In this document: in pieces, positions 9,897 through 42,271 of the stretch
Position numbering within the stretch: the first letter of the stretch is position 1
How the letters are laid out: every line of letters begins with the position of its first letter
NCBI GenBank assembly: GCA_934271235.1
Contig: CAKQQT010000006.1
Coordinates: forward strand, 1-64,000
Length of the DNA stretch: 64,000 bases
DNA from: an uncultured Clostridia bacterium
Lineage (GTDB): Bacteria; Bacillota; Clostridia; Peptostreptococcales; Anaerovoracaceae
Direction: 5' to 3'
Position numbers and translations under genes: made by a program
Notes under the pieces: model-generated
Database searches by the model: none
Told to the model about the DNA's origin: nothing
What the model saw: the letters and a program-made list of their open reading frames with translations, nothing else

Positions 9897-12254
9897 TTAC
9901 AGACCTGTCTGGATGGTCCGGTCGATGATGTTGTTCTGGATCTCTTCGCTCAGGTCAACGAAGTAAGCGGAGTATCCGGCTACACGCACCAGGATGTTCC
10001 GGTATTTATCCGGTTCCTTCTGGGCCGCACGCAGCGTCTCGTTGTCCAGAACGTTGATCTGGATGTGGAAACCGTTCTGCGCGAAGTGTGCCCGGAATAC
10101 GGTCTCGATGATGTCCAGACCCTTTTCACCGGCTACCACTGCAGGGTCGAAGCGCTGGTTCAGTAAAAGACCGCTCTGCGGTACCAGTTCGTCGCAGCAT
10201 GCCAGCGAGTTTACAACTGCCGTCGGGCCGTTGACGTCCATACCGATCATCGGGGAGGCGTTATCCGCGAGCGGTGTCATGGAGAGTCTGCCGTCCGGTG
10301 TCGCGCCGGTCTCTTTACCCATCTCAACATTGTAGGACTGCGTTGCAACGAGGATCGTGAACGGTCCGCCATGCGCATCCGGGATGCGCTTCATGGAAGT
10401 TTCCAGCGTATCGATCAGCCAATAGGAATATTTGTCAACGGCTTCGATATCGTTGCCGAACTTCGGCGCCTTGTTGATCAGCATCTGACGCAGGTTTTCC
10501 TTGCCTTCAAAGTTCGTATCCATCAGTTCGACCAGTTCCTTCATGGTCAGATAGTGCTTGTTGAAGACGCATTCTTCGATCGCTGCCATGGAGTCGATCA
10601 TGTTCGCGATGCCGGCAACGCCGATCGCCGAATAGTGGTGATAGGAACCCTTCTGCTGCAGCAGCTTGCCCTGTTCTGCGCAGCCGACCGAGAAGCAGGA
10701 GCCTGTGATCGTCGGCAGGGTGAACGCGTGGCCCGCGAGGGTCCGGTTTGCCATGGTGATGAATTTATCCATGAAGAAGTCTAATTGCTTCCGGTAAGCT
10801 TCCATGACATCTTCCATGCAGGTGAAGGTGCTCGGATCGCCGGTCTCGATACCGAGTTTTTCGCCGTAGAGGGTATCGTAACCGTTGTGGAGCATGATAT
10901 CGAGGACTTTCAGCGGGTTGAAGTAGCCCGGGTTGCTCTGGAAGTCGGTCTTACCCAAAACATGCGGCTCGATGCATCCGCAGATACCCCAGTTTCTGGC
11001 TTCTTTCAGCGTGAAGCCGAGGCTGAGCAGGTACGTGATCGCGGTCGTATCATTGTAGAACGCCGGATGTCCGCCGGTGTCTCTTGCAGCCTGGATAGCC
11101 AGCCGGAAGGTTTCCTCGTCGATGTTCGGATGGAACCGGAAGGAGATACAAGGTTCGTCGGTCTGCAGATCCAGCATGCAGCGCAGGAAGATCCGGGTCA
11201 GCTCGTTGCAGGCGTCCTTGCCGTTTTCGAGCTGTCCGCCGAGCATGACATGCATCCACAGCGGGCATCCCGGGTCCGCCAGGGATTCCGCGTAGCAGCG
11301 GATGTTCCAAACCTCTGCGATCTTGAGCTTGAACTCATGGATGATCTCCGCGAAGTAGGATTCCGGCTTTCCTTCCGCGGCTTCTTTTTCATAGAACGGA
11401 TACATATATTGGTCAAAACGGCCGAGCGTATGGTCGCCGCCGGCGGCTTCCAAGGTGATGGCCAGATGGTTCATCCATACGAACTGCGCGGCCTGCAGGA
11501 AGTTTGTCGGCGGGTTTTCCGGAACGGTCCTGCAGTTTTCTGCCATCGTCAGCAGTTCCTGTTTTCGCTTCGGGTCGGTGCAGGTCTTGGCCTGTTCTTC
11601 CGCCAGGTCCGCATAGCGGTGGGAGAACGCGATGATCGCTTCCATGACGATGATCATGGATTCCCAAGCGATGCGCTGTTCCATATCATAGACGTCTTTG
11701 ACCACGTGCTCGGCCAGTCTTTCCTTGCAGTAGTCGATGTACCAGCGATAACCGCGCTTGATCAGATTATCATAGTCCGGGGAGTGGTTCATCGTGGACT
11801 GGTTGGAAACGCCGTGGGAGAAGATCTTGGCGTCGAGCATCTTGAGGATGTCTTCATCCATCAGGTGCTTCGCGTAATCGCCGAAAGTCTCGCCCTTCCA
11901 TTTCTCTACGATCTCGCGGAGTTCCAGCTTTTCTTCTTCGCTGCGGAAAGCCAGGTGGTCCGAAGGACGTTTGTCGAGGGTGTCGAAGTCCTCATAGAGC
12001 CATCTTGCGACATCCGGATGCATGACCGCGTTGTTCCAGCTGCCGCCCTGATGGCCGGCGATCTGGGAATCTTCGTCGATGAAGATCTTGCGGTTTTCGA
12101 GGTAATAACGGAAAGCCTTCGCGCGCCGTAAGATATAGTTATCCATGGACGGATGGCTGTAGAATTCCGTGATCAATCTGGCACGATCCAGGTCGATCGT
12201 CGGCTGTGAGTTACGGACTTTGTCGCTGAGTCTTGCAATTCTTTCTGATATCAT
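9897..12254 (-). CDS. Glycyl radical enzyme of unassigned substrate (PFL-like family)
   Basis: A 785-residue glycyl radical enzyme. The radical site is G760 in RVAGYSAYF, and the catalytic cysteine is C427 in CGCIEPH, next to the base-like E429. The single thiyl Cys followed by I-E-P is the arrangement of dehydratase or C-N/C-O lyase members, not of pyruvate formate-lyase, which uses two adjacent cysteines. Substrate specificity cannot be read from this alone. I compared it from memory with choline, glycerol/diol, isethionate and hydroxyproline enzymes and do not assign it to any. The ATG overlaps the activase stop by 4 nt (ATGA), with AGGAG upstream, so the pair is translationally coupled. 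The shared operator at 13295 suggests co-regulation with the divergent MutL/B12-mutase operon. Confidence 0.92.
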   Translation of the reverse strand: MISERIARLSDKVRNSQPTIDLDRARLITEFYSHPSMDNYILRRAKAFRYYLENRKIFIDEDSQIAGHQGGSWNNAVMHPDVARWLYEDFDTLDKRPSDHLAFRSEEEKLELREIVEKWKGETFGDYAKHLMDEDILKMLDAKIFSHGVSNQSTMNHSPDYDNLIKRGYRWYIDYCKERLAEHVVKDVYDMEQRIAWESMIIVMEAIIAFSHRYADLAEEQAKTCTDPKRKQELLTMAENCRTVPENPPTNFLQAAQFVWMNHLAITLEAAGGDHTLGRFDQYMYPFYEKEAAEGKPESYFAEIIHEFKLKIAEVWNIRCYAESLADPGCPLWMHVMLGGQLENGKDACNELTRIFLRCMLDLQTDEPCISFRFHPNIDEETFRLAIQAARDTGGHPAFYNDTTAITYLLSLGFTLKEARNWGICGCIEPHVLGKTDFQSNPGYFNPLKVLDIMLHNGYDTLYGEKLGIETGDPSTFTCMEDVMEAYRKQLDFFMDKFITMANRTLAGHAFTLPTITGSCFSVGCAEQGKLLQQKGSYHHYSAIGVAGIANMIDSMAAIEECVFNKHYLTMKELVELMDTNFEGKENLRQMLINKAPKFGNDIEAVDKYSYWLIDTLETSMKRIPDAHGGPFTILVATQSYNVEMGKETGATPDGRLSMTPLADNASPMIGMDVNGPTAVVNSLACCDELVPQSGLLLNQRFDPAVVAGEKGLDIIETVFRAHFAQNGFHIQINVLDNETLRAAQKEPDKYRNILVRVAGYSAYFVDLSEEIQNNIIDRTIQTGL

Positions 12255-13180
12255 ACTACTATCTCCTTCTTATTTTTTTTCATATAGAAACATGGTTTGC
12301 CATACGGTTTTAAGATCTTGTTGGCTGCCCGTACCAGATCCTGCATCGCTTCATCGGACGGCGCCTGGATCTCCTTGAGGGTGTAAGGGACGCCCAGCGA
12401 TGCGTACTTGGATTCTCCCAGGTTGTGGTAAGGGAGCAGCTCATATTCGTGGATATTTGGGATATCTTTGATAAATTCCGCCGTTGCCGTGATATTTTCC
12501 GCACTGTCGTTCAGACCCGGGATGACCGGCGTGCGGATGATGATCGGAATGCCTTTCGCGGCGATGGCCTTGATGTTGCTTAAGATGATCTCGTTGCCGA
12601 CGCCGGTGAGCTCTTTATGTACGGCGGAGTCCATATGCTTGATGTCGATGAACGTTTCGTCGATATAGTCCAGCGCTTTTTCGAAATCCTCGAAGCGGCC
12701 GTAACCGCAGGTTTCCATGGTGGTATGAAGGCGGTTCTGCTTGCATTTTTTGGCCGTCTGATACAGAAGCTCCGGCTGAGTCAGCGGTTCGCCGCCGGAA
12801 AAGGTGACGCCGCCGCCTTTGATCTCATAAAAGAAGCGGTCTTTGTTGACTTCGGTAAAGATCTCATCGGCGGTCATTTCTTTGCCGACGATAGTTTTCG
12901 CCTCCGCATAGCAGATATTGGCGCACGCGAAGCATTTGACGCAGGCGCTGCGGTCGATGCGCAGGCCGTCCTCCTGCGGATGGATGGCGCCTGTCTTGCA
13001 GGCCTTGACACATTCGCCGCAGCCGATGCATTTCTTTGGGAATTCCATGATCTGCATCTGATAGGATTGCGACTCCGGATTGGCGCACCACGCACAGTGC
13101 AGCGGGCAGCCCTTAAAGAATACGATCGTGCGGAGACCGATCCCGTCATGTATGGAACACTTTTGGATATTGAAGATCAA
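12251..13180 (-). CDS. Glycyl radical enzyme activase (radical SAM, two ferredoxin clusters)
   Basis: A 309-residue activating enzyme that uses SAM and a 4Fe-4S cluster to put the radical on the Gly of its partner. The radical SAM motif CPLHCAWC gives C25, C29 and C32, followed by two inserted ferredoxin motifs (CIGCGECVKAC and CVKCFACANIC), as in the long activases of the non-PFL glycyl radical enzymes. TTG at 13180 is preferred as start: AGGAGG sits 8 nt before it and the protein then begins LIFNIQKCSIHDG, matching family N-termini. A GTG at 13243 in the same frame would add 21 atypical residues without a ribosome site. Confidence 0.9.
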   Translation of the reverse strand: MIFNIQKCSIHDGIGLRTIVFFKGCPLHCAWCANPESQSYQMQIMEFPKKCIGCGECVKACKTGAIHPQEDGLRIDRSACVKCFACANICYAEAKTIVGKEMTADEIFTEVNKDRFFYEIKGGGVTFSGGEPLTQPELLYQTAKKCKQNRLHTTMETCGYGRFEDFEKALDYIDETFIDIKHMDSAVHKELTGVGNEIILSNIKAIAAKGIPIIIRTPVIPGLNDSAENITATAEFIKDIPNIHEYELLPYHNLGESKYASLGVPYTLKEIQAPSDEAMQDLVRAANKILKPYGKPCFYMKKNKKEIVV

Positions 13181-13294
13181 AACAGATTCCTCCTGATTTT
13201 TCTGATTTTTGACAATTTGCAGGCCGGTGCCTGCTGTGCTCACATATTTTTTGTTTTATCAAGCTGATGAAAAATATGACAAATTCATGAAAAA

Positions 13295-13309
13295 CGTTGT
13301 CTGACAACG
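13295..13309. promoter_or_regulatory. Palindromic operator in the divergent GRE / MutL promoter region
   Basis: CGTTGTCTGACAACG is a perfect palindrome around the central T at 13302. It is immediately upstream of the mutL-like promoter and also upstream of the likely activase promoter (minus strand, TTGTCA at 13283-13278 and an A+T-rich -10 near 13258). Near-copies occur at 16593 and 20411. TTGTC-N-GACAA operators are typical for GntR/FCD regulators, and such a gene follows at 16627. Confidence 0.7.
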
Positions 13310-13317
13310 AAAATAAG

Positions 13318-13346
13318 TTAACAACAAGCCGAATATCGTTTATAAC
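13318..13346 (+). promoter_or_regulatory. Promoter of the MutL-like/B12-mutase operon
   Basis: -35 TTAACA (13318-13323) and -10 TATAAC (13341-13346) with a 17-bp spacer, 24 nt before the start codon. The operator at 13295-13309 ends 8 bp upstream of the -35 box. Confidence 0.65.
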
Positions 13347-13369
13347 TAAACAAAGTCGGAGGATTGGGT

Positions 13370-14755
13370 ATGAAGTACGTAATTGCAATCGATTTTGGCA
13401 GTACCTTTACCAAGATCGTCATCATTGATCGGGAACAAAAAAAGGTCATCCACAGCGATAAAACGCCGTCCACCGTAGGCACGGACGCAGCGATCGGTAT
13501 GAACCGCTGCTTTGCGATCGCCAGAAACATCATCGGCGAAGAAGAATTCAGCAAAGCGATGAAGATCGCCTCATCCAGCGCGGCCGGAGGGCTGCGGATG
13601 GCAGTGATCGGACTGACCCGTTCGCTGAGCCTGATGGCAGGCGAGTCCGCGGCATTGGGCGCAGGCGCGAAAGTTGTCGCCAACTATATGGGGAAACTCC
13701 GCGATGAGGACATTGCAGATCTCGAGCAGAACAAGGCGGAGATCCTGCTCTTCGGCGGCGGCTATGAACACGGCAATCAGACCATGGTGCTGCACAACGC
13801 GGAGAAGATCGCAGAGTCACAGATCCGTATTCCGATCATCTACTGCGGCAATTCGGACCTTGCCGGAGATATCCGCAGACTCATGATCAGCCGCGGCAAG
13901 GAATGCTTCGTGGTTGAAAATATGCTGCCCAAAATGGGAGAAAAGAATGTAGAGCCGGTGCAGGAAGTCATCCGCAACCTTTTCCTGCAGCGGATCACTG
14001 ATATGAAAGGCTTCGATCAGGTCAAAAAAGAATTTGACAACGATTTTATGCCGACACCGAAAGCGGTTCTGGATGCCGGAGAGTTGCTGAGCAAGGGCAC
14101 GGCGGCGCAAAGCGGACTGGGCCAGCTGATGATCGTGGACATCGGCGGCGCGACGACAGACGTGTACTCCATGAACCAAAACAAGAGCTATCTGGGCGCC
14201 AAGATGACCGGGCTGGAAGAACCGTACGAGAAACGGACCGTGGAAGGAGATCTCGGCATGCGGGAATCTTCCGGGAGCGTTCTGACCGGTGCATACTTAA
14301 GCGAAGCGGCAGCGAAAACAGGGCTCTGCGAAGAGCAGATCCACGCTTCCATCGCGAAGAGGATGGAGGAGCATGAGTTCCTGCCTGACACAAAAGAAGA
14401 ACAAGAACTGGACGACTGCATCGCGGCAGCGGCGATCCGCCGCGCGGCAAGAAGACATGCAGGCTATGTCCGTAAAGCCTATACAACCGGCTGCAGGATG
14501 TTCCAATACGGAAAAAATCTTTCCGAGATCACCGCAGTCATCGGAACAGGAGGGATCCTGGTCTTCAATCCGCGCGCGGCGGAACTGCTCAAAGAGGTTG
14601 AAAAGAAAGCCGACGACGTCGACGCGCTGCTGCCGGAAAAGGTGACCCCTTATCTGGATACGGAATATGTATTGTTTGCAGCGGGCCTTCTGCGGGAGAC
14701 CGATGAGGAAACGGCGCTGTGCATTATGAAGAATAGTTTAAAAGTCTGTGAATGA
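13370..14755 (+). CDS. MutL/GlmL-family B12-mutase reactivase
   Basis: A 461-residue ASKHA-fold ATPase. The N-terminal phosphate loop DFGSTFTK and a second nucleotide motif MIVDIGGATTDVYS are clear. Members of the GlmL/MutL family sit beside B12-dependent mutases such as glutamate mutase and are thought to release damaged cobalamin at the cost of ATP. The next gene, 24 nt downstream, is a B12-dependent mutase-like protein, in keeping with that role. ATG at 13370 is chosen because GGAGG lies 7 nt upstream; a TTG 6 nt earlier is less likely. It differs from the second family member at 40407, which is longer and has a C-terminal Cys motif. Confidence 0.85.
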   Translation: MKYVIAIDFGSTFTKIVIIDREQKKVIHSDKTPSTVGTDAAIGMNRCFAIARNIIGEEEFSKAMKIASSSAAGGLRMAVIGLTRSLSLMAGESAALGAGAKVVANYMGKLRDEDIADLEQNKAEILLFGGGYEHGNQTMVLHNAEKIAESQIRIPIIYCGNSDLAGDIRRLMISRGKECFVVENMLPKMGEKNVEPVQEVIRNLFLQRITDMKGFDQVKKEFDNDFMPTPKAVLDAGELLSKGTAAQSGLGQLMIVDIGGATTDVYSMNQNKSYLGAKMTGLEEPYEKRTVEGDLGMRESSGSVLTGAYLSEAAAKTGLCEEQIHASIAKRMEEHEFLPDTKEEQELDDCIAAAAIRRAARRHAGYVRKAYTTGCRMFQYGKNLSEITAVIGTGGILVFNPRAAELLKEVEKKADDVDALLPEKVTPYLDTEYVLFAAGLLRETDEETALCIMKNSLKVCE

Positions 14756-14779
14756 TCGCGATAAAATAGGGAGGATGAA

Positions 14780-16555
14780 ATGGAACTGAAATTTAACTGG
14801 AAATTTGACATTAAGAATCTGCAGGATGTCGCATCCATGCAAGCCGATGTCGAAAAGGCGGCGGACGGACTCAAGATCGGACGCACCAAATTTATGGAAA
14901 AATACGGCGTGTCTTCCGAACGCGAATACAAAGAAAAGATGATGAAAGAGGGCGTCGTCATGAAGCACTCCGCCATCGGCTATAATACCTGGGAAACAAC
15001 AGAAGACGCAGTCAGAACGGTCTTTCACTCACTGAAAGACGGCGGCTCCTATATCACCCGTTACGGCGTATGCCTGGACTGGGTGATGGGCGTTCCGGAA
15101 GAATATCGCGGCAGGATGCAGGCCGGCTCCGGCGCGATCCTGCGCAACGAAAAGGAATGGATGGCCATCGGACAGATCGAAGCCGTGCAGCCGCACCTCG
15201 GAGACCATATGATCGGTTCTCTGAACTCCCTGCACAATGCGATCAACGGCCTGAAAGCCGGCGTTACTACGATCGGCAACTTTTCTCATTACTATACTTA
15301 CGAATATCCGGGCTTTGATATGGACGAGTACCGTACCAACGATATGTGCAAGGGTCTGCTCCTGATGGCAAAATACAGAGATCAGGGCACCATCGTACAT
15401 TCCAATCTGGACGACGGTTTCGGCGCGCAGTTCCAGGACATGGCAAACCTGGTCGGTTACGCGAAACTCGAACGCTACATCACCGAAGAACTGCTGGGCG
15501 CCAGAATGGGACATTGCTTCGGCAACTTGTTCAATGACCCGATGGTCCGGATCATCTTCAATGTAGCGATGAGCAAGATCAACACCTACCATACGCCGGG
15601 CTCCATGATCTACGGCAACACCATCGATTTCGGTTTCAACATGGCAAGAAACTACGCGAACCTGACATCCTATTCGATGGCCGACGCGATCGGACAGCTG
15701 CTTTGCCCGACCGGCCACGCGATCACACCGATCCCGATCACCGAGGCGATCCGCATCCCGAACGTGGACGAGATCATCGAAGCGCACAACACCGTGGATA
15801 TGGCCATCGAACAGGCGCATTACTATAAAGATTTCGTCGACTACGCGAAAGTCGAAGCAGAAGCGGATCTGCTGGTTGCCTGCGGCAATGTTTTCTTTGA
15901 AAGAGTCCTCAACGCGCTGAACGATCACCACATCGACATCCGCCATCCGGGTGAAATGCTGGCGGCGCTCAAAGCGATCGGACCGGCACAGCTGGAAGCG
16001 AACTTCGGCTCCGGCGAACGCAAAGAAGGCGCGATGCGCGGCAGAGTACCGGTAAGATCGACCTCGATCGTCAAGGAGATCGGCAGACAGCAGGATTCCA
16101 TCCTCTGCGAGATCAAAGACCTTGATAAGAAACCGCTCAAAGGCGTCAACCTGATCGTCGGTTCGACGGATGTACACGAATTCGGCAAGGAGATCTGCAA
16201 GAACATCCTCACCGAAGCCGGCGCGCAGGTCTTTGACCTGGGAACTACCGTTTCTGTGGACGAAGTCGCGGATGCGGTGATCGAAACCGAAAGCCGGGCG
16301 ATCCTGATCAGTACGTTCAACGGCATGGCTTACAGCTTCGGCAAAGCGATGACGGACAAGCTCAAGGAGATCGACGTGCAGGTGCCGTTTGTGATGGGCG
16401 GCAGATTAAATGAGCCGATGGACGGCAACGACGTGCCGGTCGATGTGACCGAACGTTTGAGCGCTTTAGGCATCAATACGGATAACGATATGCAGAAGAT
16501 CGTCGGCTATCTGCAGGAGACCCTCCACCTGCCGGTACCGGGACAGAATGCGTAA
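14780..16555 (+). CDS. B12-dependent mutase-like protein, GlmE-type barrel fused to B12-binding domain
   Basis: A 591-residue protein with two parts. Residues about 1-430 resemble, distantly, the TIM-barrel catalytic subunit of glutamate mutase (GlmE); segments such as GVTTIGNFSHY, HSNLDDGFGAQF and PITEAIRIP fit its pattern. Residues about 455-585 are a cobalamin-binding Rossmann domain with the base-off motif D464-x-H466-x-x-G469, so H466 is the predicted lower ligand of cobalt. In classic glutamate mutase the B12 subunit is separate; here it is fused at the C-terminus. No methylaspartate ammonia-lyase is nearby, so simple glutamate mutase is unlikely. A rearrangement of an amino acid or related acid is the reasonable guess; substrate unknown. 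It is co-transcribed with the MutL-like reactivase. Confidence 0.75.
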   Translation: MELKFNWKFDIKNLQDVASMQADVEKAADGLKIGRTKFMEKYGVSSEREYKEKMMKEGVVMKHSAIGYNTWETTEDAVRTVFHSLKDGGSYITRYGVCLDWVMGVPEEYRGRMQAGSGAILRNEKEWMAIGQIEAVQPHLGDHMIGSLNSLHNAINGLKAGVTTIGNFSHYYTYEYPGFDMDEYRTNDMCKGLLLMAKYRDQGTIVHSNLDDGFGAQFQDMANLVGYAKLERYITEELLGARMGHCFGNLFNDPMVRIIFNVAMSKINTYHTPGSMIYGNTIDFGFNMARNYANLTSYSMADAIGQLLCPTGHAITPIPITEAIRIPNVDEIIEAHNTVDMAIEQAHYYKDFVDYAKVEAEADLLVACGNVFFERVLNALNDHHIDIRHPGEMLAALKAIGPAQLEANFGSGERKEGAMRGRVPVRSTSIVKEIGRQQDSILCEIKDLDKKPLKGVNLIVGSTDVHEFGKEICKNILTEAGAQVFDLGTTVSVDEVADAVIETESRAILISTFNGMAYSFGKAMTDKLKEIDVQVPFVMGGRLNEPMDGNDVPVDVTERLSALGINTDNDMQKIVGYLQETLHLPVPGQNA

Positions 16556-16563
16556 AAAACCCT

Positions 16564-16605
16564 TTGCAAGCATGCCGGACTATGTTAAAATAGATGTATG
16601 ACAAC
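16564..16605 (+). promoter_or_regulatory. GntR-gene promoter with autoregulatory operator
   Basis: TTGCAA (16564-16569) and TAAAAT (16586-16591) are spaced by 16 bp. Immediately downstream is GATGTATGACAAC (16593-16605), which differs at one position from the site at 20411-20423 and at two from the 13295 core. Lying across the predicted transcription start, it suggests self-repression. Confidence 0.6.
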
Positions 16606-16626
16606 AAAGATAAAAGGACAGAGTAA

Positions 16627-17355
16627 ATGGAAGAGAATCAATTATTAAGCAAACTGGCCGTAGAGCATATCAAAACGCAGTCGGATTTTCTGGCTGACCG
16701 CATCAAGGACATGATCGTCGATGAAGAACTGGCAGACGGCTTCACCTTTCCGAACGAGGCGGAGTTCTGCAAGATCCTTAACGTGAGCCGCAGCACCCTG
16801 CGGGAGGCCTATAAGATCCTCGATACGCAGGGCTTTATCCGTAGGACCAAGCGAGGGACTTACATCCGCAGCCGTGACGAGATCGCCGCGCAGGGTAACT
16901 TCACCGCCAGTCTGGAATTGAGCAGCTATCGGGAAATGTGCGAATTTGTCTGTGCGCTGGAACCGGAAGCGGTCTACCTCGCGGCTCAAAAGATCACCGA
17001 AGAAGAGCTGGAAGAACTGCGCCGCCTGATGGAAGACGTGGAAGCCTGCGGGAATGACTACAAAGCGGTCATGAAAAAGAACAGCGCGTTCCATGGCTTT
17101 ATCCGCAAGATCGCTGACAACACGCTGATCACCAGTGCGCTGATGGCTTATTACGACAGTTTTTCACAGCAGATCGTCGAGAACATCTATGCGCAGAACG
17201 ATAATCTGGAAGAGTTTCTGCAAAACTCCCTGCGTGATCACCGAGAACTCTACGCGGCGCTGCAGGCGCATGACTGCGAGACTGCCAGAGATATCGAGTA
17301 CCGGCATCTGGTCGCAGACCTTAAGAAAAAAGAAGAAGTCCAAAGAAAAAAATAG
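16627..17355 (+). CDS. GntR-family regulator, FadR/FCD subfamily
   Basis: A 242-residue regulator. Residues about 15-80 form the GntR winged helix (FPNEAEFCKILNVSRSTLREA is the helix-turn-helix), and residues about 90-230 an all-helical FCD effector domain. FCD proteins usually bind small carboxylates or amino acids through a metal centre. The gene follows the B12-mutase operon, has a candidate operator at its own start, and has matching sites in front of the GRE/MutL pair and one ProC-like gene, so it is the likely local regulator of all of them. Confidence 0.88.
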   Translation: MEENQLLSKLAVEHIKTQSDFLADRIKDMIVDEELADGFTFPNEAEFCKILNVSRSTLREAYKILDTQGFIRRTKRGTYIRSRDEIAAQGNFTASLELSSYREMCEFVCALEPEAVYLAAQKITEEELEELRRLMEDVEACGNDYKAVMKKNSAFHGFIRKIADNTLITSALMAYYDSFSQQIVENIYAQNDNLEEFLQNSLRDHRELYAALQAHDCETARDIEYRHLVADLKKKEEVQRKK

Positions 17356-17387
17356 ATACGCAAAGAATTCTTCGCAAGAATTCCTCG

Positions 17388-17433
17388 AATCTCCCGGAGG
17401 ACAGGATCCAAACCTGTTTCTCCGGGATTTTTT
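17388..17433 (+). terminator. Terminator of the GntR gene
   Basis: AATCTCCCGGAGGACAGG (17388-17405), loop ATCCAAA, then a largely complementary arm CCTGTTTCTCCGGGATT and a T run to 17433. A separate hairpin GAATTCTT-CGC-AAGAATTC (17365-17383) comes just before it. Confidence 0.85.
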
Positions 17434-17481
17434 GTAGTGCGCTCAACGCATTTCGAAAAACATTTTGGAGGAGGAATTTGT

Positions 17482-17592
17482 ATGAGCAATACAACGATTT
17501 ACGGTTACGTCCGCGTATCATCGAAGGACCAGAACGAAGCACGGCAGCTTGCGGCACTGGCCGCGTTTGACATTCTGCCGCAAATACCTTGA
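17482..17592 (+). pseudogene. N-terminal remnant of a serine recombinase (resolvase/invertase)
   Basis: ATG with GGAGGAGG upstream opens a 36-codon frame beginning [20 protein letters not shown], the N-terminus of small serine recombinases with the catalytic Ser in YVRVSS. Homology stops near residue 29, where it runs into an unrelated sequence and a stop. Full proteins are about 180-200 residues, so this is a truncated relic of a mobile element. Confidence 0.75.
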
Positions 17593-17962
17593 AAGCTCTG
17601 AAAAGTTCTATTTGTGTGACAGCGGCATTCGATATGCGATCCTGGGAAGCAGAAATATGGATTATGGTAGAGTATATGAAAACATCGTTTGCATCGAGCT
17701 TCTTCGCCGTGGATACGATGTCTATGTCGGTAAACTCTATCAAAAGGAGATCGACTTTGTTGCTCAGAGAGGCAGCGAGAAGATCTATATTCAGGTAAGC
17801 GACAACATTTCCGGGCAGGAAACATTTGAAAGAGAATGCGCTCCTCTTCTTCAGATTCGAGATGCTTATCCGAAGATGATGATTGCCAGAACCAGGCATC
17901 CGAAATATAGCTATGAAGGAATTGAGATCCATGATATAGCCGATTGGCTGCTGCAAGAATAA
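17574..17962 (+). pseudogene. C-terminal remnant of an ATPase with DUF4143 domain
   Basis: In another frame from the recombinase stub, codons from about 17574 to the stop at 17960-17962 give about 129 residues typical of the C-terminal DUF4143 part of archaeal/bacterial-type ATPases: a [13 protein letters not shown] start, [19 protein letters not shown], and the EIDFVAQ nuclease-like motif, ending [10 protein letters not shown]. The ATPase domain that should precede it (about 250 residues with Walker motifs) is missing. Nothing here looks like a translation start for it. Confidence 0.75.
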
Positions 17963-18060
17963 GCAAGGCAAAATATCTCCGTCATTCTCTCTTGAAATGA
18001 TGGAGATTTTTTTGCGAAAGGAGCAGATGCAAATAAAATTTGCTGTGAAACGAAAAACGG

Positions 18061-18366
18061 ATGCATAATGTACTGCTTTTTTGCAGTTTTCAAAAAATCT
18101 GCACGAGATGAAGCCTTGGAAATAGAATTATTTTACAAATAAAGAAAATATTTTTGACTGATGCAGAAAAACTTTTGTAGAAACCTGTCGAAAATGCCCG
18201 AAGCGCGTCGCCGCGGATGTGCACCAGAAGTTTTCAATTCACCCCAGAAGCTTATCCACCCGATTTTGCTTGTAGAAAATGGAAAAAATGTGCCGGAGTA
18301 CGCAGAAATCCTGTGCAAGTCCGTGCAGATTTTTCAAAAAGGACGGAAAAGCAGTACATTATGCAT
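18061..18366. repeat. MITE-like element with terminal inverted repeats
   Basis: ATGCATAATGTACTGCTTTT (18061-18080) recurs as a perfect reverse complement at 18347-18366. After a mismatched stretch, the pairing resumes with AAAAATCTGCAC (18093-18104) against GTGCAGATTTTT (18323-18334). The arms are thus about 44 nt long and bound a 306-bp unit with no convincing gene inside. I see no clear target-site duplication. It occupies most of the gene-free stretch 17963-18528. Confidence 0.5.
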
Positions 18367-18418
18367 ACTTAGAAAATTATGGAAGGTCATCGTGCGTTTT
18401 CCCATGCCTGCAACAAGG

Positions 18419-18474
18419 CCAAAAGGGGCTTCGCCTTAACGGTTATTTTCTGTTAAAGCGGCAGCCCCTTTTGG
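18419..18474 (-). terminator. Terminator downstream of the first ProC-like gene
   Basis: CCAAAAGGGGCT (18419-18430) pairs perfectly with AGCCCCTTTTGG (18463-18474), with additional inner pairing (TTAAC/GTTAA). It lies about 55 nt downstream of the minus-strand gene ending at 18529. Confidence 0.75.
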
Positions 18475-18528
18475 ATCCATGTGTTTTGGTATCGTGGTTG
18501 ACGACGATGATGCCGGCAAGCGAAACGC

Positions 18529-19332
18529 TTACAGAGAGTTTGCCTTGTCGACAGCGTCCTTGACGGACTGCATCACTGCGGCCTGGAAACCGTGGTCGAT
18601 CAGGGATTTATAGCCCTCGATCGTAACGCCGCCCGGAGAACACATCGCATTGACCATATCCTTTGGCACGGCGCCGGTTTCATCTAAGACCATAGCAACG
18701 CCGAGCATATTCTTGATGACGATATTGCGCGCATCTTGACGGCTGAAACCGGAATAAACGCCGGCGTCGATCAGAGCGTCTGCCATCTGGTAGAGCCATA
18801 ACGGACCGGAACAGCTGTAAGCCGTGAATTCGTTGAACATGCTTTCCGGCAGGTGCATGGTCTGGCCGAGGGAATTGAGGATACGAGTCACCAGTTCTTT
18901 TTCCTCGGCGGTGATGTTTTGGTTCAAGGCTACGGCGCTGTGTCCGTTGCCGGATCTGTTCAGGGTGTTCGGCATAACGCGGACGATCTTGCGGTCTGCG
19001 CCGAGCATTTCTTCGAGTTCCGCGAGCTTTACGCCGGCCGCGATGGAAATGAAAAGGGTATCCTTTTTCGTTGTGTCTTTGAGTGTCTTCGCTACGATCG
19101 GTACGATCTTCGGAAGGACCGCGATAAACACGATGTCTGCTTCCGGCATTGCTGCGGAAGCATCTACCGGAGCTTCTACGCCGTAAGTTTCTTTCAAGTA
19201 GCCGCAGCGCTGCGGATTCAGTTCACTGACGGTGATATCGGTGCTGTCAGCAGCCTTTTTGGTAAGCATGCTGCGGATCACGCCCTCGGCCATATTGCCG
19301 CCGCCGCAAAATAAAATTTTCTTCTCGCCCAT
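18529..19332 (-). CDS. proC: Pyrroline-5-carboxylate reductase-like protein (copy 1)
   Basis: A 267-residue member of the ProC family, which reduces cyclic imines such as P5C with NAD(P)H. The N-terminal Rossmann motif is FCGGGNMAEG, and the C-terminal dimerisation domain has VMPNT and CSPGGVTIEG. In most P5C reductases the latter reads SPGGTT; Val replaces the first Thr here. ATG at 19332 has GAGAGG upstream and gives the normal family length; a longer reading starting at 19473 adds 47 residues with no family likeness. A second ProC gene is directly upstream on the same strand. Confidence 0.85.
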   Translation of the reverse strand: MGEKKILFCGGGNMAEGVIRSMLTKKAADSTDITVSELNPQRCGYLKETYGVEAPVDASAAMPEADIVFIAVLPKIVPIVAKTLKDTTKKDTLFISIAAGVKLAELEEMLGADRKIVRVMPNTLNRSGNGHSAVALNQNITAEEKELVTRILNSLGQTMHLPESMFNEFTAYSCSGPLWLYQMADALIDAGVYSGFSRQDARNIVIKNMLGVAMVLDETGAVPKDMVNAMCSPGGVTIEGYKSLIDHGFQAAVMQSVKDAVDKANSL

Positions 19333-19410
19333 AATTTTTTTCCTCTCTTTTCTTTTTATATGATAAATTTTTTCATTGTGTGGCACTTTTGACCCTGTTT
19401 GAAACAATAA

Positions 19411-19478
19411 AGGGACTGTCGGACACCGGAACCGCTCATCCGGATCTGCCCGACTGGTTCTTGTATGCGACAATCCCT
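19411..19478 (-). other. Hairpin between the two ProC-like genes
   Basis: AGGGACTGTCG (19411-19421) and CGACAATCCCT (19468-19478) pair with one mismatch. On the minus strand the outer stem is followed by TTTATTG. It may terminate copy 2 or act in the leader of copy 1. Confidence 0.4.
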
Positions 19479-19518
19479 CATTGCATAAGGAGACATCTTT
19501 TATAATAAGAAGTTGTAA

Positions 19519-20319
19519 TTATAAACGGTTTGTTTTGTTGAATCCGGCGATCACAGATTCCATCACGGCATTCTGGAAGCCGGTCTGCTTCAGAACACGC
19601 AGGGATTCGATGGTGACGCCCGCAGGGGAGGTCATCATGCCAGTCTTTGCCGACGGCTCGATGCCGGTTTCCGCGATCAGCTTGGCGGCTCCCAGCATGT
19701 TTCTGACAGCCATATCTTTGGCAACAGGACGTGGGAATCCGACGTAGACACCGGCGTCGGTGAGAGCCTCCAGCAGCTGATAGCAGAAGAGCGGACCTAC
19801 ATTACAGTAGCTTGTAAATGCATTGAAGAGGTCTTCGTTTATTTCCTGAATCTGCCCCAGGTATTGTACGTATGATCTTGCACTTTCTTTGTCTTCGGCA
19901 GTACAGTTCGGGTTAAAGCAGATCGCCGAATAACCGGACTGTGTCGCGATCATGGTATTCGGCGTCATGCGGACGATCTTTTTGTCGTCGCCAAGCTGCG
20001 CGGCAAGAGTTCCTAACTTGGTCGCCGCAGCGATGGAAAGGATCAGCTGCTCTTTGTTGATCAGCGGCTTCAGGTAAGCGGTCACGGCAGAGACGAATTT
20101 CGGCACGACCGCGATGATCAGCATATCCGCTTCTTTGACCTGCTGCGCGGGATCCGCGAGCGCGGCAACGCCGTATGTTTTCTTTAGATATTCACAGCGT
20201 GCTTCAACCGGTTCTTTGACCGTGATACAGGCCGGATCTACGTTTCCGTTGCGGATAAAACCGCTGATGATGCCTTCGGCCATATTGCCGCCGCCTAAAA
20301 AAACAATTTTCTCGTTCAT
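19519..20319 (-). CDS. proC: Pyrroline-5-carboxylate reductase-like protein (copy 2)
   Basis: A 266-residue ProC-family reductase, clearly diverged from copy 1. It begins with FLGGGNMAEGI and has RMTPNTM; its substrate loop reads SPAGVTIES, so both the second Gly and the first Thr of the usual SPGGTT are changed. It has a consensus promoter (20382-20410) next to an operator that matches the glycyl-radical locus, which ties it to that regulon. It may act on P5C or on another cyclic imine. Start: ATG at 20319 with a purine-rich AGGGAAGGGG upstream. Confidence 0.83.
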   Translation of the reverse strand: MNEKIVFLGGGNMAEGIISGFIRNGNVDPACITVKEPVEARCEYLKKTYGVAALADPAQQVKEADMLIIAVVPKFVSAVTAYLKPLINKEQLILSIAAATKLGTLAAQLGDDKKIVRMTPNTMIATQSGYSAICFNPNCTAEDKESARSYVQYLGQIQEINEDLFNAFTSYCNVGPLFCYQLLEALTDAGVYVGFPRPVAKDMAVRNMLGAAKLIAETGIEPSAKTGMMTSPAGVTIESLRVLKQTGFQNAVMESVIAGFNKTNRL

Positions 20320-20381
20320 GGTACGAAGCCCCTTCCCTATTTATGAGCGCAAGCTTGCGCGTGATCTTCGAATGTGGCTTT

Positions 20382-20423
20382 ATTATATAACGGAAAAAAT
20401 CCGTTGTCAAGATGTCTGACAAC
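20382..20423 (-). promoter_or_regulatory. Consensus promoter of ProC copy 2 with GntR-type operator
   Basis: On the minus strand TTGACA (20410-20405) and TATAAT (20387-20382) with exactly 17 bp between them, a perfect sigma-A promoter. Directly upstream is the operator GATGTCTGACAAC (plus-strand reading, 20411-20423), and a second half-site GTTGTC (20403-20408) overlaps the -35 box. A 14-bp palindrome GCGCAAGCTTGCGC lies in the leader at 20347-20360. Confidence 0.8.
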
Positions 20424-20449
20424 GTGGCGATTTGTAAACAAGACGGAAA

Positions 20450-20515
20450 TTACCGGAACAGCTGCGAGGCGGTCGGCAATGCCGAGCTGTAGATTTTGAA
20501 GACAGCGCCCGGTAA
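20450..20515 (+). ncRNA. Candidate structured leader RNA ahead of a small open frame
   Basis: TTACCGG (20450-20456) closes with CCGGTAA (20509-20515). Inside are CAGCT (20459-20463)/AGCTG (20485-20489) and CGGC-AAT-GCCG (20474-20484), followed by a single-stranded stretch. The closing stem runs directly into the ribosome site GGAAAGGAG at 20516-20524. The form is riboswitch-like, but I do not recognise a known class. Confidence 0.35.
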
Positions 20516-20529: not shown

Positions 20530-20654
20530 ATGTCAACGATTACAATGCTACATGCGAAATCAAATGGGGCAGTTGGATCGACGTCATGTACAAATATGTA
20601 TTTGTCGCTGTTATGGCGTTCTTCACCGTACAGGCGCTCATCGACCTGTTCTAA
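20530..20654 (+). pseudogene. Possible small membrane protein, apparently frameshifted near its start
   Basis: A strong ribosome site leads to ATG at 20530, but that frame gives an unremarkable 68-residue chain. One frame over, codons from 20535 to the stop at 20652 read NDYNATCEIKWGSWIDV followed by MYKYVFVAVMAFFTVQALID, a short hydrophilic head and one clear membrane helix. A one-base insertion after ATGTC would join them into a 41-residue protein. Either the gene carries a frameshift, or only the 22-codon piece from ATG 20586 is made. A terminator follows at 20765. The function is unknown. Confidence 0.35.
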
Positions 20655-33615: not shown

Positions 33616-34163
33616 TTCCCTATTATGACAGAAAACGAGCGGTTTTTCAAGTAGTTTTGCCGCGGGCAGATTTTGTTCCGTGCCTTGGAATAAAGTGATG
33701 CAAAAATATTTGCATCACAGGAAAAACATTGGAATTTCAGAAAAAACAGACAACAGAATGGATTTTTCCACGCGAAAAAAGTCGAAAGGAAAGCTTTTCT
33801 CGGACAGAATCGGATGGCGGTCGAAAAAACAAAGACATTTGACAGACCGAGCAGGAGAAAAAGTCGAAACTGATCGACAAAGGTGCAAAAAAAATTGCGC
33901 TCAAGATGCAAAAATATTTGCGATTTTTAAAAAATACTGCACAAAATCTGAATTTCGAGCATGCAAAGACAGCAAAAAACGCGAACGATTTTGACTTTTT
34001 GCTTCAAAAACACAGGAAAATCATCATGTTTTTTTGTAAAAACAACAAGAAATGCGCGAAAACCATGTATACAAAGTGCAGAATAGGACATGGCATAGTA
34101 TTTGCTAAATATATAAGCAAATTGTTGCTAAACAAATTTTGTTTTGAAAAGGAGATTAATAAG
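33616..34163 (+). promoter_or_regulatory. A+T-rich upstream region of the ornithine cluster with repeats
   Basis: A 548-nt gene-free stretch. The 17-mer GATGCAAAAATATTTGC occurs at 33697-33713 and 33905-33921; the first copy is part of a palindrome with 10-bp arms (GTGATGCAAA-AATA-TTTGCATCAC, 33695-33718). ATGTATACAA is at 34065-34074 and an inverted repeat TTTGCT/AGCAAA at 34101-34121. I cannot place one clear promoter; the last 100 nt are the most likely site. An open reading of this stretch in frame with ord has no coding character. Confidence 0.5.
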
Positions 34164-35225
34164 ATGAAAAACGTAAAAGTGATCCTTTGGGGATTAGGCG
34201 CTATGGGCGGCGGAATCGGCAAAATGCTTACAAAGAAAAAAGGCGTTGATATCGTCGGCGCGATCGATATCGGAGCAAAAGTAGGCAAGAGCTTATATGA
34301 AGTCGTTCCTGGCATCGTAAAGGGCGACAGAGAAGACGTTATCGTTGGAACTCCGGAAGAAGTCATCAAACCGGGCGCAGCAGATATCGTTGTTGTCTGC
34401 ACAAACTCCTTCACAAAAGACGTATTTGACAAGCTGGTATTCGTAATGGAAAGAGGTATGAACGTCATCACTTCCGCAGAAGAAATGGCTTATCCTCAGG
34501 CTCAGGAACCGGAACTGGCTAAGAAATTAGATGAAATCGCAAAGAAGAACGGCGTATCCGTTATGGGTACCGGCATCAACCCGGGTCTCATCATGGACCT
34601 GCTGGTAGTTCTGTGGACCGCTGCTTGCGAAGAAGTTAACCACGTAACTTCCAGAAGAGTCAACTCCCTGTCCCCGTTCGGACCGGCAGTTATGGAAGAA
34701 CAGGGCATCGGCATCTCCGTTGAAGAATTCAACGAAAGAAAAGCAAACGGCACGATGGCAGGCCACGTAGGCTTCGCGGAATCCACTATGATGATCTGTG
34801 ACGCTCTCGGCTGGAAGTGGGACGACTTCGGTCAGGATATGGAACCGATCGTAACCGACGTTGACAGAAAATCCCCTTACGGCTTCGCGGCAGCAGGACA
34901 GGTTGCAGGCGTTGCGATGAAGGGCTGGGTCAACATTGACGGCGAAAGAAAGATCGACATGGATCACCCGCAGCAGATCGAACCGGAACAGGTTGGCGTT
35001 CACACCGGCGACTATGTAATTCTGGACGCAGTTCCTCCTGTAAACATGGTAAACACTCCGGAGATCGAAGGCGGTATCGGTACGATGGCTATGATCATGA
35101 ACTGCATCCCGCACTGCATCAACGCAGACCCTGGTCTGATCACAATGCTGGATATCCCGGTTCCGCATGCGATCATGGGCGACTTCAGAGATCTGATCAA
35201 AGAAAACAAGAAGATCGTAAAGTAA
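34164..35225 (+). CDS. ord: 2,4-diaminopentanoate dehydrogenase
   Basis: A 353-residue NAD(P)-dependent dehydrogenase related to dihydrodipicolinate reductase. It oxidatively deaminates (2R,4S)-2,4-diaminopentanoate, the product of OraSE, to 2-amino-4-oxopentanoate. The Rossmann motif is LWGLGAMGGGIGKML at residues about 6-20; MGTGINPGLIMD and NSLSPFGPAVMEEQGIG are family segments. ATG at 34164 has AAGGAG upstream; a much longer frame to 33906 is not credible. First gene of the ornithine oxidation cluster, read in the order ord-ortA-ortB-oraS-oraE. Codon use is typical of highly expressed genes. Confidence 0.94.
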   Translation: MKNVKVILWGLGAMGGGIGKMLTKKKGVDIVGAIDIGAKVGKSLYEVVPGIVKGDREDVIVGTPEEVIKPGAADIVVVCTNSFTKDVFDKLVFVMERGMNVITSAEEMAYPQAQEPELAKKLDEIAKKNGVSVMGTGINPGLIMDLLVVLWTAACEEVNHVTSRRVNSLSPFGPAVMEEQGIGISVEEFNERKANGTMAGHVGFAESTMMICDALGWKWDDFGQDMEPIVTDVDRKSPYGFAAAGQVAGVAMKGWVNIDGERKIDMDHPQQIEPEQVGVHTGDYVILDAVPPVNMVNTPEIEGGIGTMAMIMNCIPHCINADPGLITMLDIPVPHAIMGDFRDLIKENKKIVK

Positions 35226-35257
35226 TCAATCTAACATCATAAGGAGACAGATAGAAA

Positions 35258-35563
35258 ATGGCTAAGAAAGGCGATTGGGTCCGCATTCACAGCATCGTTC
35301 TGAAAGCAGAAGAAAGAACTGCAAAACTGCCGGACGATACTAAAAAATGCGACTTACAGCAATGGACAAAAGGCTTCCTGCAGGATGAAGAAGCAAAGTT
35401 AGGCGACGAAGTCACCGTTAAGACTGCGGTCGGCCGTCTGGTAGAGGGCACGCTGATCGATGAGGCCCCTTACTATACACACAGCTATGGCAAATTCGTA
35501 CCGGAGATCATCGAAATTGACAGACAGCTGAGAGAGATCATGAATTTCGGAGGTGAAGAATAA
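35258..35563 (+). CDS. ortA: 2-amino-4-ketopentanoate thiolase, alpha subunit
   Basis: The 101-residue small subunit of the PLP-dependent thiolase that splits 2-amino-4-oxopentanoate with CoA into acetyl-CoA and D-alanine. It matches OrtA in size and in the segments WVRIHSIVLKAEERTAKLP and TPYYTHSYG-like APYYTHSYGKFVPEI. The stop TAA shares one base with the ortB start (TAATG). Confidence 0.92.
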   Translation: MAKKGDWVRIHSIVLKAEERTAKLPDDTKKCDLQQWTKGFLQDEEAKLGDEVTVKTAVGRLVEGTLIDEAPYYTHSYGKFVPEIIEIDRQLREIMNFGGEE

Positions 35564-36972
35564 TGGCATTAGCAAAGGACTATCAGTCCGTTATGGGCAG
35601 ATCCAACGAAATCCAAAAAGAAGCATTAGGACTTGACTATTCCGATTTCGAAACTTCTCCGATTTCCTTCGATTACGACGCACTGATGAAATCCACCGGA
35701 TATACATTAGATGAGATCGAAAGGATCCAGGGACTGCACGGTGTCGGCAATACTCCGCTCCTGGAACTCAGAAACATCACAAAATTAGCACGCAAATACG
35801 CGAAACCGGGCTACGGCGCAAGGATCTTCGCAAAAGACGAATCCTGCAACGCTTCCGGCTCTTTCAAGGACAGACGTGCAGCATGCGCGGTCGCTCATGC
35901 GAAGAAATTAGGATACAAGGGCGTTATGGCAGCGACTTCCGGCAACTACGGCGCAGCGGTCGCATCCCAGGCAGCAATGCAGGGACTGAACTGCATCATC
36001 GTACAGGAATGCTATGACTCTCACGGCGTCGGACAACCGGAGATCGTCGAAAAGGCCAGAAAGTGCGAAGCACTCGGCGCAGAAGTCGTTCAGCTGACCG
36101 TTGGACCGGAATTATTCTATTCCTTCCTGTCCATCCTCGAAGACACCGGATATTTCAACGCATCCCTGTATTCTCCGTTCGGTATCGCCGGCGTAGAAAC
36201 CTTAGGCTATGAGATCGCGACCCAGTGCAGAGAAAAACTCGGCAAGGACCCTGACGTTGTCGTTTGCACGACAGCAGGCGGCGGTATGGTGACCGGTACG
36301 GCTCGCGGCTTGATCAAAGCAGGCTGCAAGGCAGAAGTCGTTGCCGCATCCATCGACTTAACAGGTCTTTCGATGGCTTCCGATGCTGACTTCAACAAGA
36401 AGTCCTGCACGACAGGCCACACCGGTTTCGGCGTTCCTTACGCGACCGATCCGGACCACTCCGACGTTCCGCGTTCCGCAGCACGCCCGCTGAGATACAT
36501 GGACAAATACATCACCACCACACAGGGCGAAGTTATGTACATGACCGAAATGCTGGCAAATCTGGAAGGTATCGAAAGAGGTCCTGCAGGAAATACCGCA
36601 CTGGCGGCAGCATTCTCCTACGCGCAGGAACTTCCGGAAGACGCGATCGTCGTTGTTTCCGAAACCGAATATACAGGCGCAGGCAAGCACATCCAGCCGC
36701 AGCTTGATTTTGCAAGAGACAACGGCATCGACATCCGCTTCGGCGATCCGAAGGACGACAAGCCTGGCACAAACCTGATCTTACCGGCAAACCCTGGTCT
36801 GATCAAACACAAAGTGGCAGATATCGATCACTTCCGTAAATCTCTCATCAAGAAAGCGGTCAAGAAGGCCGGCGTAAAGCCGACCGACGCTGATCTGGAA
36901 TTCTTAGCAGTCGAAACAAAGACCGACGTTGACTTTGTAAAGAAGACGCTGGAAGCAGAGGGCTTACTGTAA
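35563..36972 (+). CDS. ortB: 2-amino-4-ketopentanoate thiolase, beta subunit
   Basis: The 469-residue PLP-binding catalytic subunit, in the threonine-synthase-like fold II family. The Schiff-base lysine is predicted to be K102 in ASGSFKDRRA, and the phosphate-binding Gly-rich loop is TTAGGGMVTGTARG. Acts with OrtA to form acetyl-CoA and alanine, the energy-conserving branch of ornithine oxidation. Translationally coupled to ortA. Confidence 0.94.
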   Translation: MALAKDYQSVMGRSNEIQKEALGLDYSDFETSPISFDYDALMKSTGYTLDEIERIQGLHGVGNTPLLELRNITKLARKYAKPGYGARIFAKDESCNASGSFKDRRAACAVAHAKKLGYKGVMAATSGNYGAAVASQAAMQGLNCIIVQECYDSHGVGQPEIVEKARKCEALGAEVVQLTVGPELFYSFLSILEDTGYFNASLYSPFGIAGVETLGYEIATQCREKLGKDPDVVVCTTAGGGMVTGTARGLIKAGCKAEVVAASIDLTGLSMASDADFNKKSCTTGHTGFGVPYATDPDHSDVPRSAARPLRYMDKYITTTQGEVMYMTEMLANLEGIERGPAGNTALAAAFSYAQELPEDAIVVVSETEYTGAGKHIQPQLDFARDNGIDIRFGDPKDDKPGTNLILPANPGLIKHKVADIDHFRKSLIKKAVKKAGVKPTDADLEFLAVETKTDVDFVKKTLEAEGLL

Positions 36973-36995
36973 GTTAGATTATCTTAGATTATCCA

Positions 36996-37034
36996 TGCGT
37001 GTTCCGGAGCGCTTGCGGCGCTTCGGGACATGCG
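36996..37034 (+). other. Intercistronic hairpin between ortB and oraS
   Basis: A 17-bp stem with four G-U pairs (36996-37012 with 37018-37034) and the 5-nt loop TTGCG. No T run follows, so it is more likely an RNA processing or stability element than a terminator. It ends just before the oraS ribosome site. Confidence 0.6.
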
Positions 37035-37057
37035 GTGAAATGAAAGGAATTATAAGG

Positions 37058-37420
37058 ATGAAAAGAGCAGACGATTTTGAAGTAAGAAGACAGCATATCG
37101 CTAATCTTACGGATGAAGAACTTTATCAGAGATTCTGGGAACTGACCGACAAGGTTGTTGACCCGCTTCTGGAACTTGGCAGAAAGAATACGACTCCTTC
37201 TGTTGAAAGATCCGTTTTACTGAGAATGGGCGTATCCTCCTTAGACTGCATGCCGATCGTAAATCATGCGATGGACCACGGTCTGATGGGCAAAGGCTGC
37301 GGACACTGTGTTTACAAGCTGTCCAAGCTGGAAAACATCTCCATCAGAGAAGCCAGCATCAAGCTTGCAAAGGGCGAAGGCTGGGATAAAGTTGTAGCAG
37401 CGTTCAAGGAGGGTAAGTAA
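37058..37420 (+). CDS. oraS: D-ornithine 4,5-aminomutase, small subunit
   Basis: The 120-residue S subunit of the B12- and PLP-dependent aminomutase that moves the terminal amino group of D-ornithine from C5 to C4. The family N-terminus MKRADDFEVRRQHIANLTDEE begins at ATG 37058, with AAAGGA upstream, so earlier in-frame starts are not needed. KNTTPSVERSVLLRMG and GLMGKGCGH are conserved. Its stop is separated from oraE by a single base. Confidence 0.94.
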   Translation: MKRADDFEVRRQHIANLTDEELYQRFWELTDKVVDPLLELGRKNTTPSVERSVLLRMGVSSLDCMPIVNHAMDHGLMGKGCGHCVYKLSKLENISIREASIKLAKGEGWDKVVAAFKEGK

Positions 37421-37421
37421 G

Positions 37422-39638: not shown

Positions 39639-39671
39639 TTTATCTCCAAAACAAAACAAAATGAAACCCTA

Positions 39672-39701
39672 GGGGCTGGGCCGCATGCCCAGCCCCTGTT
39701 T
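39672..39701 (+). terminator. Terminator after oraE
   Basis: GGGGCTGGGC (39672-39681) pairs perfectly with GCCCAGCCCC (39687-39696), loop CGCAT, tail TGTTTTA. It separates the ord-oraE unit from the thioesterase/reactivase/racemase genes. Confidence 0.9.
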
Positions 39702-39882
39702 TATCGCCTGCGCGGGGGCATCGCCTGCGGATCGCCTCGCGGCATCAAAGGTCATGTGCGGATCGCAGGACATCGCAGGACATAGAAAAAGCAAACTTGA
39801 AAATTACACAGGAAAGTCTTTTCTGTGATATACTTATAGATTGAAATACAAACGACTGCAAAACAGCAAAGGAGAGACACCA

Positions 39883-40317: not shown

Positions 40318-40406
40318 GTATCCGAAATTCTATTGCAAACAAATGAAAGATAGTCATATAAAGATAAAATAACAATGGAGCGCAAAGTATAAAAAGGAGG
40401 ACAGGA

Positions 40407-42230: not shown

Positions 42231-42271
42231 ATAAGAATGCCGAAAGGCAGAAAGGATGAAAGGACAAGAAT

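Follow-up and report, generated by a model that had tools for sequence, protein, structure and literature searches.

A GntR/FCD-controlled island with HplG and a fused B12 protein: a possible two-armed fermentation of hydroxyproline isomers

The 64,000-base stretch of DNA analysed here (the window), from an uncultured Clostridia bacterium, contains between positions 9,897 and 20,423 genes for a glycyl radical enzyme and for a B12 protein, and the question that it raises is what these two do in the company of ProC-like reductases. An earlier note on this DNA had named a glycyl radical enzyme, its activase, a MutL-type reactivase, a fused B12 protein, a GntR/FCD regulator and two ProC-like reductases, and all of these genes were found. 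We tentatively propose that the region is a GntR/FCD-controlled island fermenting hydroxyproline isomers via two radical arms. For anaerobes, hydroxyproline from collagen is a major nutrient. The glycyl radical enzyme is already known; what is new is the B12 enzyme and its place in the fermentation of hydroxyproline. Genomes and loci are designated by G and L numbers.

The glycyl radical enzyme and the sink for its product

The window's glycyl radical enzyme (9897..12254, minus strand) matched PDB entry 7vua, 'HplG', with a phmmer score of 1,559 bits over 785/785 residues, against 481 for the next structure, glycerol dehydratase, and 430 for HypD (6vxc). In a tree of 24 glycyl radical enzymes it fell into a clade with nine other HplG-like rows (support 100/100), and the Cys427-x-Glu429 pair and the radical Gly760 were all located in it. 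Identity with HypD was ruled out, the score of 521.1 bits being below the HypD equivalog cut-off of 1100 and the best structure being that of HplG. Judged by sequence, the enzyme is almost certainly HplG, which a figure legend of PMC11528403 names trans-4-hydroxy-D-proline lyase. Its radical-SAM activase (12251..13243, minus strand) scored 354.7 bits with TIGR02494 (cut-off 174.35) and contains CPLHCAWC and two ferredoxin-type clusters.

The product of HplG is 2-amino-4-ketopentanoate (AKP), which is then split by OrtAB. Genes for OrtA and OrtB (2-amino-4-oxopentanoate thiolase; 35258..36972, plus strand) lie 23 kb from HplG, inside an oxidative ornithine cluster (33906..43360, plus strand) with Ord, OrtA, OrtB, OraS, OraE, Or-4 and ornithine racemase. 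Both exceeded the curated cut-offs (134.6 bits versus 70 for NF040739, and 795.8 versus 550 for NF040741), and OrtAB stands directly behind HplG in L036/L077 and in L116. OrtAB is the sink that we assign to HplG's product. Because of the HplG match and the presence of OrtAB in the same window, the chemistry of the glycyl radical half is already known, and the word 'undescribed', which the earlier note had used, does not apply to it. The HplG pathway of Duan et al. (JACS 2022, doi 10.1021/jacs.2c01673) reportedly shares with the window its glycyl radical enzyme, the activase and the OrtAB thiolase; the B12/MutL, ProC and GntR units are reportedly not part of it.

OrtB was matched in 21 of the 23 genomes checked (20 above the cut-off), the B12-bearing G317 and G578 giving no match at E 1e-60; being near-universal, it was dropped as a discriminator and is informative only by its absence in these two. 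HplG paralogues were seen in tandem or near-tandem in G822 (L114:2318-7043) and G031 (L060:7928-14586), with about 74% and about 53% identity to the window's HplG; the second paralogue of these pairs is perhaps for another isomer.

A shared operator and a recurring gene set

The motif GTTGTNNNACAAC occurred three times in the 64,000 bases when at most one mismatch was allowed, each time before genes of the system: as an exact copy (GTTGTCTGACAAC, 13296..13308) between HplG-activase and MutL-B12, and with one mismatch upstream of the GntR gene (GATGTATGACAAC, 16593..16605) and of ProC2 (GATGTCTGACAAC, 20411..20423). No such site precedes ProC1 in the window, in agreement with the earlier note, which had placed the operator in front of one of the two ProC genes. 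The site before ProC2 falls within a mechanical open reading frame (ORF; 20337-20699), which had no match among the reference proteins used. The count alone is weak, as shuffled windows contained 1.03 sites on average and 7 of 100 reached three. Five other genomes, however, had exact intergenic copies ahead of genes belonging to this system: before ProC2 in G002 (L002), before the sodium:amino-acid symporter (NSS) gene in G001 (L034), before MutL-B12 in G001 (L032) and G822 (L106), and between GntR and NhaC in G196 (L077), G822 (L108) and G816 (L109). Copies with one mismatch preceded MutL in G074 (L031), ProC2 in G003 (L041) and, in G822, ProC1 (L114, within a mechanical ORF), a LysR gene (L113) and a YkvI-type gene (L115). 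L002, L030, L031, L032, L034 and L041 together held three exact sites versus 0.11 expected (mononucleotide shuffling), and L106-L109 held six sites with at most one mismatch, three of them exact, versus 2.36 expected. The predicted operator is, at the level of its letters, conserved across genomes, which bears out the shared operator that had been noticed in the window. It is presumably bound by the GntR/FCD regulator (16627..17355, plus strand; PF00392 and PF07729), copies of which, 55-60% identical, are present in loci of G001, G002, G003, G074, G196, G816 and G822.

Further evidence came from gene order in relatives. In G816 a single operon, activase-HplG-MutL-B12-OrtA-OrtB-ProC1-EamA, runs along one strand, its genes overlapping or less than 200 bases apart, with a racemase homologue divergent from it. 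In G822 (L107) the genes follow one another in that order, also on a single strand, except that NSS lies between HplG and MutL; since HplG ends 356 bases before NSS and our rule for same-strand runs allowed gaps of up to 200 bases, the L107 run starts at NSS. A second set in G822 (L106) consists of MutL-B12-NSS and GntR, facing HplG-activase.

The two enzymes also co-occur, which was the test set by the earlier note. Among 349 genomes of the family of G196 (cut-offs E 1e-180 for B12 and E 1e-240 for HplG; best two to three candidates per genome scored, the L106 and L107 copies of G822 coming from separate locus inspection), B12 was present in 11, HplG in 13 and both in seven (G001, G074, G196, G733, G814, G816 and G822), versus 0.41 expected (hypergeometric probability 4.5e-9, uncorrected for kinship). 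The distance between them was within about 14 kb in six of these seven; in G733 the B12 gene and that for an HplG-like protein (51%), which is not in the tree, are on different contigs. A first set of 197 genomes (family of G001, which is the same family, and overlapping the larger set) gave nine genomes with B12 at E 1e-40, of which six were kept at at least 48% identity (G062, G069 and G126 dropped), and seven with HplG at E 1e-200, of which six were kept at at least 52% (G011, at 41%, dropped); three genomes were common to both (probability 3.1e-4). Further searches for B12 yielded 4/391 in the class of G074 (E 1e-40), 3/99 among relatives of G074 and 2/60 among relatives of G002 (both at E 1e-100), and four loci in a genome contig scan.

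Because of the operator in the window, the G816 operon, the order in G822 and the co-occurrence, the glycyl radical enzyme, the B12 protein and ProC very probably form one shared system. An unlikely alternative is that the island and its regulator are common to two separate imino-acid pathways and that B12 acts on something unrelated, for instance a pipecolate, a methylated proline or a 3-hydroxyproline. Genomes with only one of the two enzymes and the varying transporters of the clusters (NSS, EamA and a YkvI-type protein, as we take it to be) speak for it, while the single operon of G816, the same-strand order of G822 and the conserved operator speak against it.

Since the same set recurs in G816 and in both loci of G822, we regard the window as a rearranged member that has lost most of NSS. 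The symporter accompanies B12 in relatives, and just its last 37 residues are left here, as a decayed C-terminus (20541..20651, plus strand; tblastn, 70% over 37 residues to the C-terminus of the G001 protein); the strain may use another importer. The island is further broken up between GntR and ProC1 by mobile-element debris (17482..17962, plus strand), a resolvase N-terminal fragment (20.8 bits, under the Pfam cut-off of 23.3) followed by a DUF4143 C-terminal fragment.

Other, uncharacterised glycyl radical enzymes lie by the B12 system at L030:8187-10559, L034:11805-14192, L077:7933-10308, L057:12772-15129, L081:646-3021, L063:9769-12144 (B12 300 kb off), L078:2592-4961, L079:5670-8081 and L111:8992-11352. 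They do not form one tight clade; those of L030, L034 and L079 are 36-40% identical to HplG, and the four scanned (L030, L034, L007 = L079 and L057) were below every NCBIfam equivalog cut-off.

The B12 protein and its partners

The B12 protein (14780..16555, plus strand) consists of a glutamate-mutase-type barrel (about residues 12-437) fused to a C-terminal B12 domain with D464-V-H466-E-F-G469, and so has both the barrel fold and the DxHxxG domain of glutamate mutase. The MutL/GlmL-type ASKHA reactivase before it (13364..14755, plus strand; listed from TTG, with an ATG downstream at 13370) matched PF13941 with 458.8 bits over residues 6-459 of 463 and scored slightly below the cut-off of the GlmL equivalog NF040745 (462.2 versus 475 bits). 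MutL adjoins the B12 gene in 19 of 22 loci among those listed. The B12 family comprised 719 homologues at E 0.001 or better, and no reaction was assigned to it in the match names or models seen. There is little doubt, from these predicted features, that the protein is an adenosylcobalamin (AdoCbl) isomerase or eliminase. No paper among the literature matches listed, all of them open-licence, linked an AdoCbl enzyme of this type to hydroxyproline.

The nearest folds by VIA-align were glutamate mutase, lysine 5,6-aminomutase and ornithine aminomutase, and Foldseek ranked methylmalonyl-CoA mutases first. The likeness to GlmE is structural only: TIGR01503 was not among the 11 NCBIfam families matched at E 0.001, and hhalign gave a probability of 0.3% with two GlmE proteins. 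Profile alignment gave no trustworthy residue correspondence for the substrate-binding arginine claw of glutamate mutase (R66, R100 and R149 in the part of PMC9545868 used here): nothing more than a faint 'EAI-x-[IV]-P' stretch aligned, at that same 0.3%. Unlike GlmES with its GlmL, the window's protein is a fused single chain, and its barrel has no match at the level of sequence. It differs also from D-ornithine 4,5-aminomutase (OraE) and lysine 5,6-aminomutase, in that the OraE segment with the pyridoxal phosphate (PLP)-binding lysine, which we take to be K629, aligns to a four-residue gap in the B12 family. A PLP-dependent aminomutase (OraE/KamDE) was dropped for this reason and because the lysines near DxHxxG are not invariant (K470 kept in just 59/66 rows, K474 in 56/66). 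Distant relatives (about 25% identity) were found at L043:8611-10389, L044:7550-9502 and L044:14980-16734; the neighbour of the L043 protein is, instead of MutL, an ASKHA protein of the caprolactamase/acetophenone-carboxylase type (below cut-offs), and L044 has a protein that looked similar by eye.

Since the OraE lysine segment falls in a gap, carbon shifts remain as the usual chemistry. The B12 enzyme might accordingly be a carbon-skeleton mutase acting on an open-chain amino acid from imino-acid breakdown (for instance glutamate semialdehyde or an AKP derivative), with ProC handling pyrroline-5-carboxylate (P5C) in a side branch. The nearest folds agree with this, as do diverged relatives that adjoin an aminotransferase and a 2-oxoacid oxidoreductase. 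Against it stand the purely structural likeness to GlmE and mini-operons in which B12 is accompanied only by ring-compound enzymes and, in one of them, a transporter, and we consider such a mutase somewhat improbable.

These mini-operons are B12-ProC1-racemase homologue in G822 (L108) and B12-transporter-ProC-racemase homologue in G069 (L040), the L040 transporter being presumably a YkvI-type protein (no NCBIfam match). G069 had no HplG match at E 1e-200. The racemase homologue that was scanned (L030) had proline racemase and 4-hydroxyproline epimerase as its best models, both below cut-off. Of 22 loci, 7 had ProC and B12 together in one same-strand run (L030, L032, L034, L040, L107, L108 and L109); a binomial estimate for ProC near B12 (8 of 15) was set aside because its inputs were guesses. 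In the window, ProC1 (18529..19332, minus strand; longest ORF to 19473, the start at 19332 being our choice) and ProC2 (19519..20319, minus strand) scored 223.2 and 202.5 bits, respectively, with TIGR00112 (cut-off 196.75), which places both in the predicted pyrroline-5-carboxylate reductase family. Because the L108 and L040 runs hold just B12, ProC and the racemase homologue (plus the transporter of L040), and because G069 gave no HplG match, the B12 enzyme probably acts on or next to a proline-ring compound without needing HplG's product. That its own product feeds ProC is, in our estimate, slightly better than an even chance.

The same runs bear on a quite improbable alternative, in which the B12 enzyme is an AdoCbl counterpart of HplG, opening a C-N bond of another hydroxyproline stereoisomer to give AKP for OrtAB. 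B12 stands immediately before OrtA-OrtB in G816 and G822, and the C-N cleavage by AdoCbl-dependent ethanolamine ammonia-lyase resembles that by the glycyl radical enzyme CutC (PMC7077986, in the part consulted). L108 and L040, however, pair B12 with ProC and the racemase homologue and have no OrtAB, and B12-bearing G317 and G578 are the two genomes without the OrtB match.

A two-arm model and what weighs on it

The earlier note had suggested a serial route, one radical enzyme rearranging the substrate and the other cleaving it before an imine is reduced. The common operon and operator would suit such a route, but AKP is the substrate of OrtAB and is unable to close to a five-membered imine. 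Since the B12-ProC-racemase unit of G069 occurs without an HplG match and six of the 13 HplG genomes are without B12, parallel arms fit better, and we hold the serial route to be very unlikely. What stands of the earlier interpretation is the single system and, among the substrates suggested, the proline/hydroxyproline class.

In the first arm, of known chemistry, HplG would open trans-4-hydroxy-D-proline to AKP, and OrtAB would cleave AKP to acetyl-CoA and alanine. The second, which would be new, starts from another hydroxyproline isomer, from which the MutL-maintained AdoCbl enzyme would take a hydrogen and whose hydroxyl it would shift or expel; the resulting P5C would be reduced to proline by a ProC-like reductase with NAD(P)H. 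The second arm would accept electrons, consuming the reducing power of the first, and the EamA exporter found in relatives may carry the proline out. Because HplG, B12 and ProC share the predicted operator here and lie in one operon in a relative, the B12 enzyme probably handles hydroxyproline or a close relative via a step not yet described. That this step is hydroxyproline to P5C is a tentative suggestion; just as tentatively, the fused MutL-partnered protein would be the first AdoCbl-dependent hydroxyproline dehydratase/isomerase, of glutamate-mutase fold, and the B12 counterpart of HypD. HypD genes lie near a P5C reductase gene in the parts of PMC7077986 and PMC12899673 drawn on here, and the G069 ProC (L040) grouped with two HypD-linked ProC proteins (97/97), a placement that is unsure because of its long branch. 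From these two observations, the economical reading would put B12 in HypD's place. Both systems have a ProC partner and, should the proposal hold, would make P5C as their product; HypD, however, is a glycyl radical enzyme, whereas here the P5C-forming step would fall to the B12 protein.

Several observations weigh against this proposal. Four of the 11 B12 genomes lack HplG (G011, G132, G180 and G809, at 48-50% identity), and the six HplG genomes lacking B12 are G031, G122, G142, G787, G812 and G820. ProC is absent from B12's same-strand run in 15 of the 22 loci. In G122, HplG lies beside ProC1 with no B12 match and no HypD above cut-off, so that the substrate of ProC1 can come from elsewhere, provided that the genome is complete. 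A B12 homologue and true HypD occur together in G196, G317 and G330; of 15 genomes, 3 had HypD above cut-off and each of these carried a B12 homologue, so that a clean replacement of HypD by B12 was dropped. The diverged relatives L037, L056, L057 and L111 have an aminotransferase, a 2-oxoacid oxidoreductase or another glycyl radical enzyme nearby and no adjoining ProC (in G132 a 43% ProC lies some 15 kb away). Proline reductase PrdA was above cut-off in 1 of 15 genomes and was dropped as a downstream sink; proline would therefore have to be an end product. The 64-kb window gave no match to proline racemase, and its NSS is a remnant only. No operator with at most one mismatch was found in L036, L037, L040, L042, L003, L079, L059, L061, L033, L107 and L116; the sites were intragenic only in L030, L004, L110 and L111, and that of L060 was near no gene of the system. 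The fold class favours the shift of a group or of the carbon skeleton. The base-off enzymes known to have this fold move carbon groups or, when PLP takes part, amines, and we know of none that dehydrates. It is because of the fold class, HypD in three B12 genomes, G122 and the neighbours of the diverged relatives that we keep the specific reaction tentative.

Two of the diverged B12/MutL pairs, in L056 and L057, adjoin a protein of the 4-hydroxyphenylacetate-hydroxylase family (L056:4594-6054 and L057:2431-3909; that of L057, which was scanned, was below the HpaB cut-off). Both loci also have a 2-oxoacid:ferredoxin oxidoreductase and an aminotransferase, and L056 a glutamate-dehydrogenase-family protein; these pairs possibly serve a different amino acid fermentation. 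In the window, the ornithine cluster is followed by an NhaC/ArcD-type antiporter (45947-47500) and, at 55625-62131, by a histidine degradation cluster with, by Pfam, an aromatic amino acid lyase (HutH), urocanase, an amidohydrolase and formiminotransferase-cyclodeaminase parts.

The operon, the regulon and the co-occurrence place this B12 enzyme family in imino-acid fermentation and give a short list of testable substrates. If the B12 enzyme makes P5C, it would fill a gap in B12 enzymology stated in the part of PMC7077986 cited here, where hydroxyproline to P5C is without precedent, and would add a glycyl radical/B12 enzyme pair for one substrate class, like the propanediol pair in that same part. 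A B12 enzyme forming P5C would then share an operon with HplG, a glycyl radical enzyme that opens the ring.

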